Source: Candidatus Gastranaerophilales bacterium (lineage in GTDB: Bacteria; Cyanobacteriota; Vampirovibrionia; Gastranaerophilales; Gastranaerophilaceae). From it: a stretch of DNA of 46,295 bases. The stretch lies in assembly GCA_944326115.1 (NCBI GenBank), contig CALVCQ010000016.1, positions 1 to 46,295 on the forward strand, read 5' to 3'. Under the pieces are notes generated by a model. That model searched no databases, was not told where the DNA came from, and saw only the letters and a list, made by a program, of their open reading frames with translations. Shown one piece after another: positions 1-46,295 of this stretch. The position numbers were made by a program, and so were the translations under genes. Each line of letters begins with the position of its first letter. The stretch's first letter is position 1.

Positions 1-230
1 GAAGCAAAACGAACGACAGTACCGAGCGAAAAGCAAATCCAAGACAGCGGATTTGCGGACGGACGACACGACCCAAGGGAGTTAGTCCGGTAAGCGAGGT
101 ACGAAGTGACCTAACAGCCTGTGAGAAAGGTTGTTGAAATAAAGGAATTTTATAATAAAATTTTGAAATGGAATAAAAAACCTTACGAACGCCAATAATC
201 AAAGACGTAGTCAGAGTCAGTTGACTATAT
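1..230 (+). repeat. Stem-loop-rich intergenic repeat, truncated by the window edge
   Basis: This stretch is more GC-rich than its surroundings and no gene is recognised in it. It folds as successive inverted repeats: gcaaatcc at 33-40 pairs with ggatttgc at 49-56, and gttag/ctaac brackets about 80-114. Module 41-62 matches 25623-25644 at 20 of 22 positions. The segment 207-230 matches the reverse complement of 28413-28436 at 22 of 24 positions. It therefore belongs to a dispersed mosaic repeat family. The left boundary lies outside the window. Confidence 0.6.
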
Positions 231-268
231 AAAAATATATTACGGTTATAAAGTATAAAGAGAGTTTT

Positions 269-18703: not shown

Positions 18704-19099
18704 TTGTCCGGAAAAAATTCGTGATAAGACTCTTCCGAACAAAGCAATCCTGTGAATTGTTTTATGAGAGGTAAATGACAGACTTTGTACGAAAGGTGCC
18801 TGTGGCAGGTTTCGAATAGAGACTCTGCCGAATAAAATATGACCAAATGTCATATTTTATGAGAGGTCCTAAGTCAAAAGCGAAGCTTTTGCGTGCCAAG
18901 AACTCTTTGAGAAATTGACTAAATGTCAATTTCAAATAGAGACTCTGCCGAATAAAATATGACCAAATGTCATATTTTATGAGAGGTCCTAAGTCAAAAG
19001 CGAAGCTTTTGCGTGCCGTATACTAATTATGATATATTGAAAAGATAAGCATTGACGGTTCGAAGGTTCGAGGAGACAACTGCGGCACCGGATTAGATA
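18704..19099 (+). repeat. Composite stem-loop repeat element, copy A
   Basis: This block fills most of the 660-base gap between the zinc-ribbon gene and the lipoyl operon; I see no gene in it. Its first 25 bases (18704-18728) match 25446-25470 at 23 positions. Its last 28 (19072-19099) match 25731-25758 at 23 positions. The interiors differ. Internal hairpins include aaaatatgac/gtcatatttt, aaaagc-gaa-gctttt, aaattgac/gtcaattt and cgaaa...tttcg. The conserved ends and variable, hairpin-filled middle suggest a mobile or recombining intergenic element. Confidence 0.7.
18811..19017 (+). repeat. Tandem duplication inside repeat element A
   Basis: Positions 18811-18897 and 18931-19017 are identical over 87 bases except for one position, with a period of exactly 120 bases. 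A diverged third unit precedes them from about 18728 (gactcttccgaa...ttttatgagagg compared with gactctgccgaa...ttttatgagagg). Confidence 0.85.
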
Positions 19100-25445: not shown

Positions 25446-25758
25446 TTGTCCGAGAAAAATTCGTGATAAGGAGCAAAGCGACGTGAACGAATTTTTTGAG
25501 TGTCATTTGAAAAGGTGAGCAGGTGCCGGCTGCGTTGAGCGGAATCAGACTGGCACGCCGTGTGCGGAGCACCCAGTGCCACAGCGAAGGAAAACGGTGA
25601 GTTTTCCGCAGCGTCTGATTTCAAGACAGCGGAATTCCGGACGGGTGAAACCCGGTGAGCGAGTGCGAAGCTGACGGCAGCGAAGCGTAGTCAGCGGCAG
25701 CAACGAGCGGGAAGGAATTACAAGAAAGCCGGCGGCAACTGCGACACTAGATTAGATA
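25446..25758 (+). repeat. Composite stem-loop repeat element, copy B, between the two Ape operons
   Basis: This GC-rich block occupies almost the entire divergent intergenic region. Its ends match those of copy A (18704-19099). Its internal module 25623-25644 matches 41-62 at 20 of 22 positions. Hairpins seen include aaaaattcgt/acgaattttt, ggaaaac/gttttcc, cgggt-gaa-acccg and gctgac/gtcagc. The right end runs into the first base of the apeC start codon. No other gene is visible; divergent promoters must lie in or beside it. Confidence 0.7.
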
Positions 25759-27123: not shown

Positions 27124-27381
27124 ATGACGCTGGAAGAAGAATTAAAAAAACTCATTATAGAAGTGCTGGAGCTAGAGGACATTACACCTGAAGATATCAA
27201 TACAGAAGAAGCGCTTTTTATTGACGGACTTGGGTTAGATTCCATTGATGCGCTGGAGCTTGGTATGGCGCTTAAAAAGAAATATAATCTTAAGATGGGC
27301 ACGGATAAAGAAGAAAACAAAAAGTATTTTTATTCAGTAAAAACACTTGCTGATTTTATAAGAAGCCGGCAAAATAATTAA
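27124..27381 (+). CDS. apeE: ApeE-like acyl carrier protein
   Basis: This 85-residue acidic four-helix ACP carries the phosphopantetheine attachment serine S40 in GLGLDSIDALEL. It has a good ribosome-binding site (agaagga) ahead of the ATG. Together with the ACP nine bases downstream it forms the dedicated carrier pair of this locus. The KKKYNLKM stretch and the KYFYSVKTLADFI helix match the aryl-polyene-type ACPs more than housekeeping AcpP. Activation is expected from the local phosphopantetheinyl transferase. Confidence 0.87.
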   Translation: MTLEEELKKLIIEVLELEDITPEDINTEEALFIDGLGLDSIDALELGMALKKKYNLKMGTDKEENKKYFYSVKTLADFIRSRQNN

Positions 27382-27390
27382 AGGAGCAAA

Positions 27391-27645
27391 ATGGGTTCTG
27401 AATTTACAAGAGAAGATATTGCAAAAGAACTTAAAGATATTCTGGTGGAAGATTTTGAGATTGATGCAGCCAGAATAACTCCTGATGCCAACCTTTTTGA
27501 AGATTTGGAATTTGACAGTATAGATGCAGTGGATCTTGCCGTACGTCTGCAGGATTATACCCAGAAAAAGATTTCACCAAACAATTTTAAACAAATCAGA
27601 ACAGTAAATGATGTTATAGATGCAATAGAAGAACTTGTAAAATAA
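27391..27645 (+). CDS. apeF: ApeF-like acyl carrier protein
   Basis: This second 84-residue ACP has the attachment serine S43 in DLEFDSIDAVDL and a helix-rich acidic body. GGAG lies just before the ATG. Paired, sequence-distinct ACPs are standard for aryl-polyene and related flexirubin-type loci, one probably loading the starter and the other carrying elongation. The division of labour here cannot be told from sequence. Confidence 0.87.
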   Translation: MGSEFTREDIAKELKDILVEDFEIDAARITPDANLFEDLEFDSIDAVDLAVRLQDYTQKKISPNNFKQIRTVNDVIDAIEELVK

Positions 27646-28088: not shown

Positions 28089-29903
28089 ATGAATATTTTT
28101 GAAATTATTAATAAAAAAGAATATGAGAATTTATCCGTAATAAATGACGGCAAAAAAGTCTATACATTGAAAGAAATAAAAGAAATTATTCTGCCGGTTG
28201 TTCAATTTCTGAAATCACAACAAAAGAGCAAAGCCCTGATTCTGTCAAAAAACAACTTTGATTTTGCAATAAATTTTATTGCAGGAGTTTTTGCACAAAA
28301 AGAAATTCTACTGTTAGCAGATTCAAAAAAAATACAAAAGTTAGACAGTGATTATATTCTGCTTGATGAAATATACACACATTATTCTAAAGATAATCAA
28401 AAAGATACTTTCATATCGTCAACTGACTCCGACTACTTGTTGAACCTGTGCAATAAACAAGTTCAACATTTAACAACAAGTCCGGCACAGCCAACAAGTG
28501 CATGGGGTCACTTCCGTAAAATGCTAAACTCGGCGCCACTTGCACTCCGTGTACCACTCCTACAAGCGAGGTCCCACTCAGATACTTCTTTTGAATTTAC
28601 TACGCCGGAATTTGATAATACTTTTGTTACCTTTTATACATCCGGTTCCACAGGCAATCCGAAAGCAATAAAAAAGCGCCTGTCTAATATGATTATAGAA
28701 ACCAATGATTTGTTGTCTGAATTAGAAACACTGTCCGGAGATAAAACAGATATACAAATTGTTACATCAGCAAGTGCAAACCATATGTACGGCTTTGTTT
28801 ACTGGTTTTTTGCAGCGATTTGCGGCTTAGGGAGGTATATTCTAAATACATGTGAAATTGTCTATCCCGATACGGCAGATTTAGACAGCAGGATATTTGT
28901 GTCTACACCTTCCTTTCTGGAAGAGTTCAAAAAATATGCTGTAGCAATAGATAAACCGCCAAAAATTATTTTCAGTGCGGGAGACAGGCTGAAAAATGAT
29001 GTAGCTGAATATTTTAATCAATATAACGCCCAAATAATTGAAATATACGGCAGCACAGAAACAGGAACAATTGCATACAAATGCGACAATGAATATTATC
29101 ATTGTTTTAAACATGTACAAATACGCCAAAACAATGAGTCTCAAATTGTAATAAAATCGCCATACTTTATGGAAAATGAAGTCATATTGTGTGATACTGT
29201 ACAAATACTTGATAAAAACAAGTTTACGCTGGGACAGCGAACAGATAAAATCGTAAAAATACAGGAAAAAAGAGTGAATACGCAGGAAATTGAGGACATA
29301 TTAAATACAACAGGATTAATTGATAATTCCTATTGTTTTAAACACGGTGAAAAGCTTGCCTGCGCTGCAGTTCTGAATAAAAAAGGCAGGACTTTATATC
29401 TGGATAATGAAAACGGCGGAAGACAAAATGTTATAAAGCAGTTAAAAAGCTTTATAAAAGAAAAATCGGAAGTTATCCCTCAAAAGTGGAAGTTTTTATA
29501 CGAAATACCTAAAAATAGCAGAGGTAAAATTGATAAAGAAAAAATTTCTGAATTTTTTGATGTAAATCTTTCTCTGCCGCTTGTGATTAATTATAAAAGA
29601 ACGGATACTACGGCAGAATATGAACTTGTGTTTTCAAAAAACTGCAACTTCTTTGACGGGCATTTTAAAGATTTTCCTGTACTTCCGGGGGTGATACAGC
29701 TGTATTTTGCACACAGATTTGCATCAGACTCTTTTGATTGCAATGTTTTAACAACACCTGTAAAGAAAATGAAGTTTTCACACATAATAAAACCTGATAC
29801 AAAAGTGAAGTTAATATTGCAAAAATACGGTAAAAATATACATTACAAATATGAATACAATGATATAATATTTTCCGGAGGAGTTTTTGAAACAGCAGAT
29901 TAA
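28089..29903 (+). CDS. AMP-dependent acyl-ACP ligase fused to a hotdog dehydratase (ApeH-ApeI fusion)
   Basis: This 604-residue protein has two parts. Residues 1-about 480 are an adenylate-forming ligase with the P-loop FYTSGSTGNPKAIKK at about 182-196, the adenine-site EIYGSTETGTIAYK, and the C-terminal lysine motif KNSRGKIDKEKI. It would activate an acid and load it on ACP. Residues about 500-604 are a FabA/FabZ-like hotdog with FFDGHFKDFPVLPGVIQ, equal to ApeI. The two activities are separate genes in the reference order and joined here. Residues 109-170, just before the P-loop, are a poorly fitting insertion encoded by repeat-like DNA (see the repeat at 28413-28600). Product naming follows synteny; substrate is unproven. 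Confidence 0.8.
   Translation: MNIFEIINKKEYENLSVINDGKKVYTLKEIKEIILPVVQFLKSQQKSKALILSKNNFDFAINFIAGVFAQKEILLLADSKKIQKLDSDYILLDEIYTHYSKDNQKDTFISSTDSDYLLNLCNKQVQHLTTSPAQPTSAWGHFRKMLNSAPLALRVPLLQARSHSDTSFEFTTPEFDNTFVTFYTSGSTGNPKAIKKRLSNMIIETNDLLSELETLSGDKTDIQIVTSASANHMYGFVYWFFAAICGLGRYILNTCEIVYPDTADLDSRIFVSTPSFLEEFKKYAVAIDKPPKIIFSAGDRLKNDVAEYFNQYNAQIIEIYGSTETGTIAYKCDNEYYHCFKHVQIRQNNESQIVIKSPYFMENEVILCDTVQILDKNKFTLGQRTDKIVKIQEKRVNTQEIEDILNTTGLIDNSYCFKHGEKLACAAVLNKKGRTLYLDNENGGRQNVIKQLKSFIKEKSEVIPQKWKFLYEIPKNSRGKIDKEKISEFFDVNLSLPLVINYKRTDTTAEYELVFSKNCNFFDGHFKDFPVLPGVIQLYFAHRFASDSFDCNVLTTPVKKMKFSHIIKPDTKVKLILQKYGKNIHYKYEYNDIIFSGGVFETAD
28413..28600 (-). repeat. Repeat-derived in-frame insertion within the AMP-ligase gene
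   Basis: The reverse complement of 28413-28436 matches 207-230 at 22 of 24 positions. The following bases are more GC-rich than the gene around them and hold inverted repeats (gttgaac/gttcaac about 28439-28467; agtgca/tgcact further on). The segment keeps the reading frame for about 60 residues. The right boundary is estimated. Confidence 0.6.

Positions 29904-46214: not shown

Positions 46215-46295
<81 letters not shown>

Follow-up and report, generated by a model that had tools for sequence, protein, structure and literature searches.

A 177-bp repeat lies in frame within the gene of an AMP-binding ligase from a Gastranaerophilales bacterium. It is very probably a selfish, non-autonomous mobile element, rare genic copies of which survive mainly when they can be translated, and the encoded peptide most likely has no function. 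The element belongs to a multicopy family with exact ends, clean empty sites and an AT-rich target; its copies reside in frame in unrelated genes and break genes in other phases. In the mechanism that we propose, the element would spread in the genomes of Gastranaerophilales by inserting precisely and without duplicating its target site, would be moved by a trans-acting enzyme, presumably a recombinase, and would land mostly at AT-rich intergenic sites. Natural selection would remove most genic copies, with purifying selection acting against the unreadable ones. A copy inserted in element-sense orientation at codon phase 1 would be read through its sole open frame, and the downstream frame would be kept (59 x 3 bp). 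The host would then make an enzyme that bears an additional unstructured loop of 59 residues. The ligase appears to tolerate this loop because the insertion struck a variable linker that precedes the ATP loop. The peptide would have no function of its own, and the structure would be borne by the opposite strand.

The insertion in the ligase gene

The window, i.e., the whole analyzed stretch of 46,295 nt, contains on its forward strand a gene for an AMP-binding ligase of 604 aa with a fused ApeI-like dehydratase domain (28089..29903), which was assigned from the ORF list, Pfam, and Foldseek. The Pfam match of the product to the AMP-binding family had an E value of 1.3e-15, and that of the C-terminal ApeI-like region had an E value of 1.1e-4, which is below the family cut-off. 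The Foldseek matches were acyl/aryl-CoA ligases and D-alanine ligases. The neighboring genes encode carrier proteins (27124-27645), an acyltransferase, a thioesterase-like protein, and an MMPL exporter, and the gene cluster is of the aryl-polyene type.

The original prediction had placed an in-frame repeat insertion at 28413-28600. The insertion itself was confirmed, whereas its extent had to be corrected to 28408..28584 (forward strand), slightly further upstream, based on the empty site in a sister genome and the family alignment. The insert comprises 177 bp, or 59 codons, and represents an older subfamily of the element. Its left terminus is of the (T)TTTCATATTGTCAACTGACTCCGACTAC type (28408..28436, forward strand; junction logos and identical ends of 56 copies), and its right terminus is of the AGCGAGGTCCCACTCAGACA type, with GATA in the ligase copy (28565..28584, forward strand; family alignment and junction logos). 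The closest sister genome, G014, contains the same ligase gene; the encoded protein is 93% identical and 59 codons shorter. The empty site of G014 has the sequence AAAAAGATA|CTTTTTTTGAATTT, and the site in the window reads AAAAAGATA + 177 bp + CTTCTTTTGAATTT. Deletion of the 177 bp from the window yields the G014 site, with an exact joint save one substitution. The suggested alignment with the same gene in relatives thus revealed an empty site, and the relatives without the repeat also lack the respective residues. GATACTT flanks the ligase copy on either side, which could be read as a target duplication. This reading was rejected, as GATA belongs to the element terminus (GACA in other copies) and removal of exactly 177 bp restores the site of the sister species.

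Several other predicted properties of the insert were recovered. It is more GC-rich than its host gene (47% in 28413-28592 versus 32% in the remaining ligase gene). The expected addition of about 60 residues amounts to 59 codons, and the reading frame is open over all 604 codons, the insert included, without a stop codon or a frameshift. The insert is located just ahead of the ATP-binding loop, about 17 residues before TSGSTGNPK, and this downstream loop is intact (28640..28666, forward strand; protein alignment). In the homologs, the length of the linker at the insertion site varies.

A metagenome assembler might have misplaced a repeat in the ligase gene, and many contigs of the own genome do end inside the element. 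An artifact of this kind is nevertheless highly improbable, given that the two flanks form one contiguous gene whose joint is seamless and agrees with the sister species, that the ligase copy differs from the common copy at 10 sites, and that the same pattern was observed in other assemblies (G007 and G018). All 10 differences to the common 177-bp copy are transitions. Six of them are common to several other copies, and therefore the ligase copy originated from an older source and not from the recent burst. About four changes are private to the ligase copy, which indicates that the reading frame of the ligase has been maintained over a certain period.

These private changes also bear on another explanation, namely that the insertion inactivated the ligase or that the ligase is decaying, i.e., that a recent disruption happens to be in frame and is on its way to a pseudogene. 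Other copies of the element clearly break genes (UvrD-like helicase, nitroreductase, and radical SAM), and the pairwise dN/dS of the ligase exceeds that of its neighbors (0.33-0.53 versus 0.09-0.21 for six neighboring genes), so that the ligase may be under relaxed constraint. However, we regard decay as unlikely, as the 604 codons are uninterrupted and the motifs are all kept. Polarization of the amino acid replacements with outgroups assigned five to the window branch and four to the G014 branch, none of them at conserved columns. There is thus no excess and no accelerated decay. Furthermore, the fold was predicted with confidence outside of the insert: the pLDDT is about 90 throughout the structure model, with the exception of residues 98-166, which cover the insert and have a value of about 32. 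The 59 inserted residues are predicted to form a disordered loop outside of the structured core, and no Pfam match was found within them.

The orthologous ligase gene of G018, a third species, harbors a different insert of 111 bp (L052:1390-1500), which has a GC content of 49% and is in frame at another position. This repeat has 59 matches in G018, 58 in G014, and 19 in the own genome. As it differs from the 177-bp element, at least two unrelated repeat families add coding sequence in the genus. Intergenic copies of the 111-bp family are present in the window at 25446-25540 and 25727-25758.

Copies, ends, and distribution of the repeat family

A search of the own genome (2.15 Mb, 96% complete) with the 19-base terminus, allowing up to three mismatches, yielded 160 matches, versus one match for the reversed control, and thus far more than expected by chance. 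The genome-wide search for further copies that had been recommended thus uncovered about 160 ends, several of them in coding sequence. Within 713 kb of sampled stretches of the own genome, 60 full copies were found in differing surroundings. Among 56 copies with intact ends, 45 were identical across the 177 bp, and 8 represented an identical 213-bp variant with an additional hairpin module; the identity might be inflated, as assembly of short metagenome reads can make repeats look more alike.

Empty sites were found at orthologous or paralogous positions, several of them at base resolution and including nested ones, and neither a duplication nor a loss was observed. In agreement, a shuffle test did not detect a target-site duplication among the 56 copies. 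To the right of the element, the sequence A, T, T, T is favored; T occupies position +4 in 49 of 56 cases, and G is almost absent from positions +2 to +6. The left flank is merely A-rich, without a fixed tetra- or pentanucleotide. With regard to terminal inverted repeats, a weak TGTC...GACA similarity with an offset of 9 bp was noticed by eye. The orientation of the element relative to the neighboring genes showed no clear bias, and a regulatory role deduced from orientation was rejected for that reason.

The distribution of the family was analyzed in MAGs of the Gastranaerophilales and is patchy within the genus. The numbers of end matches were 148 for G000, 74 for G001, 65 for G021, 58 for G007, 43 for G004, 38 for G014, and 0-6 for the others. 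Many G000 contigs end inside the element (e.g., L237:1-102). As contigs break within it, the element is a main cause of the fragmentation of this MAG and hides further genic copies. Phage and plasmid records contained no match to the element, and a search of the literature on Gastranaerophilales repeats or insertions retrieved nothing relevant.

The family had first been noticed because the end of the insert resembles, in reverse orientation, the end of an intergenic repeat at 207-230. This resemblance is real, as 28413-28436 matches the reverse complement of 207-230 with 22 of 24 identities (E 0.002 within the window). The two repeats share the terminus, and the intergenic one is a different, longer element. 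It occupies positions 1..235 on the reverse strand, has the same left terminus (at 207-235), and the contig begins inside of it.

Copies within genes and coding status of the element

The copies avoid genes and are mostly intergenic: 5 of 62 own copies were found inside ORFs, versus a coding share of 81% of the sampled DNA, as determined with a simple ORF caller. Of the six reading frames of the 177-bp element, only one is open, and the element measures 59 x 3 bp; therefore, a host gene remains readable with just one phase in one orientation. Besides the ligase gene, in-frame copies were found in the genes for an FkbM methyltransferase (Pfam PF05050), a radical-SAM protein (PF04055 spans the insert), and an MFS transporter, in the C-terminal half of the latter at a contig end. 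Two further cases came from the sister species G007 and concern membrane proteins, namely the genes for a DUF2142 protein (PF09913 spans the insert) and for a membrane protein of 644 aa; for the latter, G014 and G001 both possess a clean empty site. Every in-frame case uses frame 2 in element sense, which is the sole open frame. The radical-SAM gene (L102:9181-10419) additionally contains a copy of the 213-bp form, which is interrupted by a stop codon. With its two copies it appears to be broken, and because of the second copy the in-frame case sits in a probably dead gene. Antisense copies that contain stop codons have apparently broken the genes for a UvrD-like helicase (L101:13961-14541) and a nitroreductase-like protein (L105:9562); both names were given by eye, and Pfam backs the helicase alone.

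The phase of insertion was evaluated with genic copies that had been picked via the DNA terminus pattern alone. The G007 and MFS cases were left out because they had been found with the open peptide as query. Four of six copies were in the readable phase, versus a share of 0.15 expected from the target preference (p 0.006). Without the index ligase, three of five copies remained (p about 0.03), which are few cases. Target preference alone was rejected as the source of the phase bias, as the expected share is just 0.15.

The insert had been described as hairpin-rich. This is only partly correct: the consensus of the gene-sense strand folds no better than shuffled sequences (z -0.7), and the antisense strand folds better (z -1.7). 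Folding of an alignment of 29 distinct copies from six genomes yielded a z value of -2.5 for the antisense strand versus -1.8 for the other strand, and the antisense fold contains compensatory pairs, e.g., C-G, U-A, and G-C at one position. The structured strand of the family and the seamless insertion would also fit an RNA that is removed from the transcript as a self-splicing intron, or a bypass element that is skipped by the ribosome, and the protein would then lack the loop. We consider this very improbable: the structured strand is antisense to the ligase gene, Rfam yielded no match at the gathering threshold, including the group I/II intron core, in the window and five further stretches, and a reverse transcriptase (PF00078), which would be relevant to group II introns only, is absent from the own genome. 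Moreover, removal of the RNA is not needed because the frame of the insert is open.

It might be asked whether the peptide is adaptive, either because selection keeps the coding frame or because the loop was co-opted in the host enzyme. The length of 177 = 59 x 3 and the frame that the 177-bp copies keep open in three related genomes would be in agreement with this view. It is nevertheless improbable, as the element of G001 has 175 bp and a closed peptide frame, the copies of G012, G019, and G008 contain stop codons in this frame, the majority of the copies is intergenic, the insert has neither a confident structure nor a Pfam match, and 30% of the shuffling trials also yielded one or more open frames. 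The open frame is therefore probably a lucky property of one subfamily, which widens the range of places where it can survive. The peptide is probably a by-product that the host tolerates, given that the strand with the structure runs antisense to it and that conservation of the frame does not extend to the whole family. For the latter reason, the term "protein-coding element" fits the effect better than the function.

Relation to known elements and mobilization

Rickettsia palindromic elements (RPEs) are short (100-150 bp) multicopy repeats, some of which are in frame inside unrelated genes (PMC10969869, PMC3767692), and orthologs within Rickettsia were reported to have most of the insertion positions in common (PMC3767692). 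A resemblance to these elements had been predicted, and the behavior of the repeat, which is in frame in several unrelated genes, bears this out. Like RPEs and the Wolbachia palindromic elements, the elements described here are short and multicopy, occur in several families per lineage, and reside in frame in unrelated genes. As for RPEs, the encoded segment is predicted to lie outside of the structured core of the host protein, and the in-frame 177-bp copies always use the same frame. There are also clear differences. The 177-bp element occurs in another phylum, and the likeness refers to behavior. The family has few genic copies, most sampled copies are identical, empty sites of sister species could be resolved to the base and revealed no target duplication, and the peptide is encoded opposite to the strand that folds better.

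The element also resembles the enterobacterial ERIC and RU elements and other intragenic MITEs with ORFs, which are non-autonomous, small, and can add coding sequence (PMC2759123, PMC10969869). In contrast to MITEs, which have terminal inverted repeats and target duplications, the 177-bp element has no duplication, and its inverted repeats appear weak. It thus falls outside the MITE definition on account of target duplication. Insertion without target duplication and structured ends characterize IS200/IS605-derived palindrome elements (PATEs) and REPINs. The 177-bp element shares both features, but it has no fixed left-flank target, and the Y1 (TnpA/RAYT) transposase (PF01797) is absent from the own genome (96% complete; the control was detected). 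The IS110 transposase is absent from the own genome as well. A search for an autonomous partner, i.e., an element of 0.7-5 kb with both ends, had no hit in 2.1 Mb of four genomes. As no target duplication accompanies the insertion and the usual transposases are missing, the question arises of how the element moves. Tentatively, and with clear doubt, it could represent an undescribed class of mobile elements, which would be modular, structured opposite to the peptide strand, and inserted seamlessly without target duplication. Its enzyme would be outside of IS200/IS605 and IS110 and would not be a reverse transcriptase, and species-wide bursts would feed new in-frame segments into enzymes of a major gut lineage.

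Translated repeat segments are best known from Rickettsia and Wolbachia, and here they occur in a distant lineage. The case is recent: sister species have empty sites, intact and broken genic copies exist together, and two families have entered the same ligase gene in two species. As a recent case has been caught, it becomes possible to test how proteins gain segments from mobile DNA and how selection acts thereon. Annotators should expect a segment of 59 residues that is common to unrelated proteins of this lineage and that is no sign of common descent.

Some further repeats were noticed in the window. Modules of the longer repeat at 1-235 recur at many places of the genome. The region around 18727-18990 contains three copies of a small module with the organization ACCTCTCA - variable palindrome - TTCGGCAGAGTC. 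The flanks of this module are conserved, and the stems vary yet remain palindromic; the 213- and 266-bp forms of the element also contain the module as a nested part. At its end (46219-46295), the contig consists of a pure ACAG tandem run.
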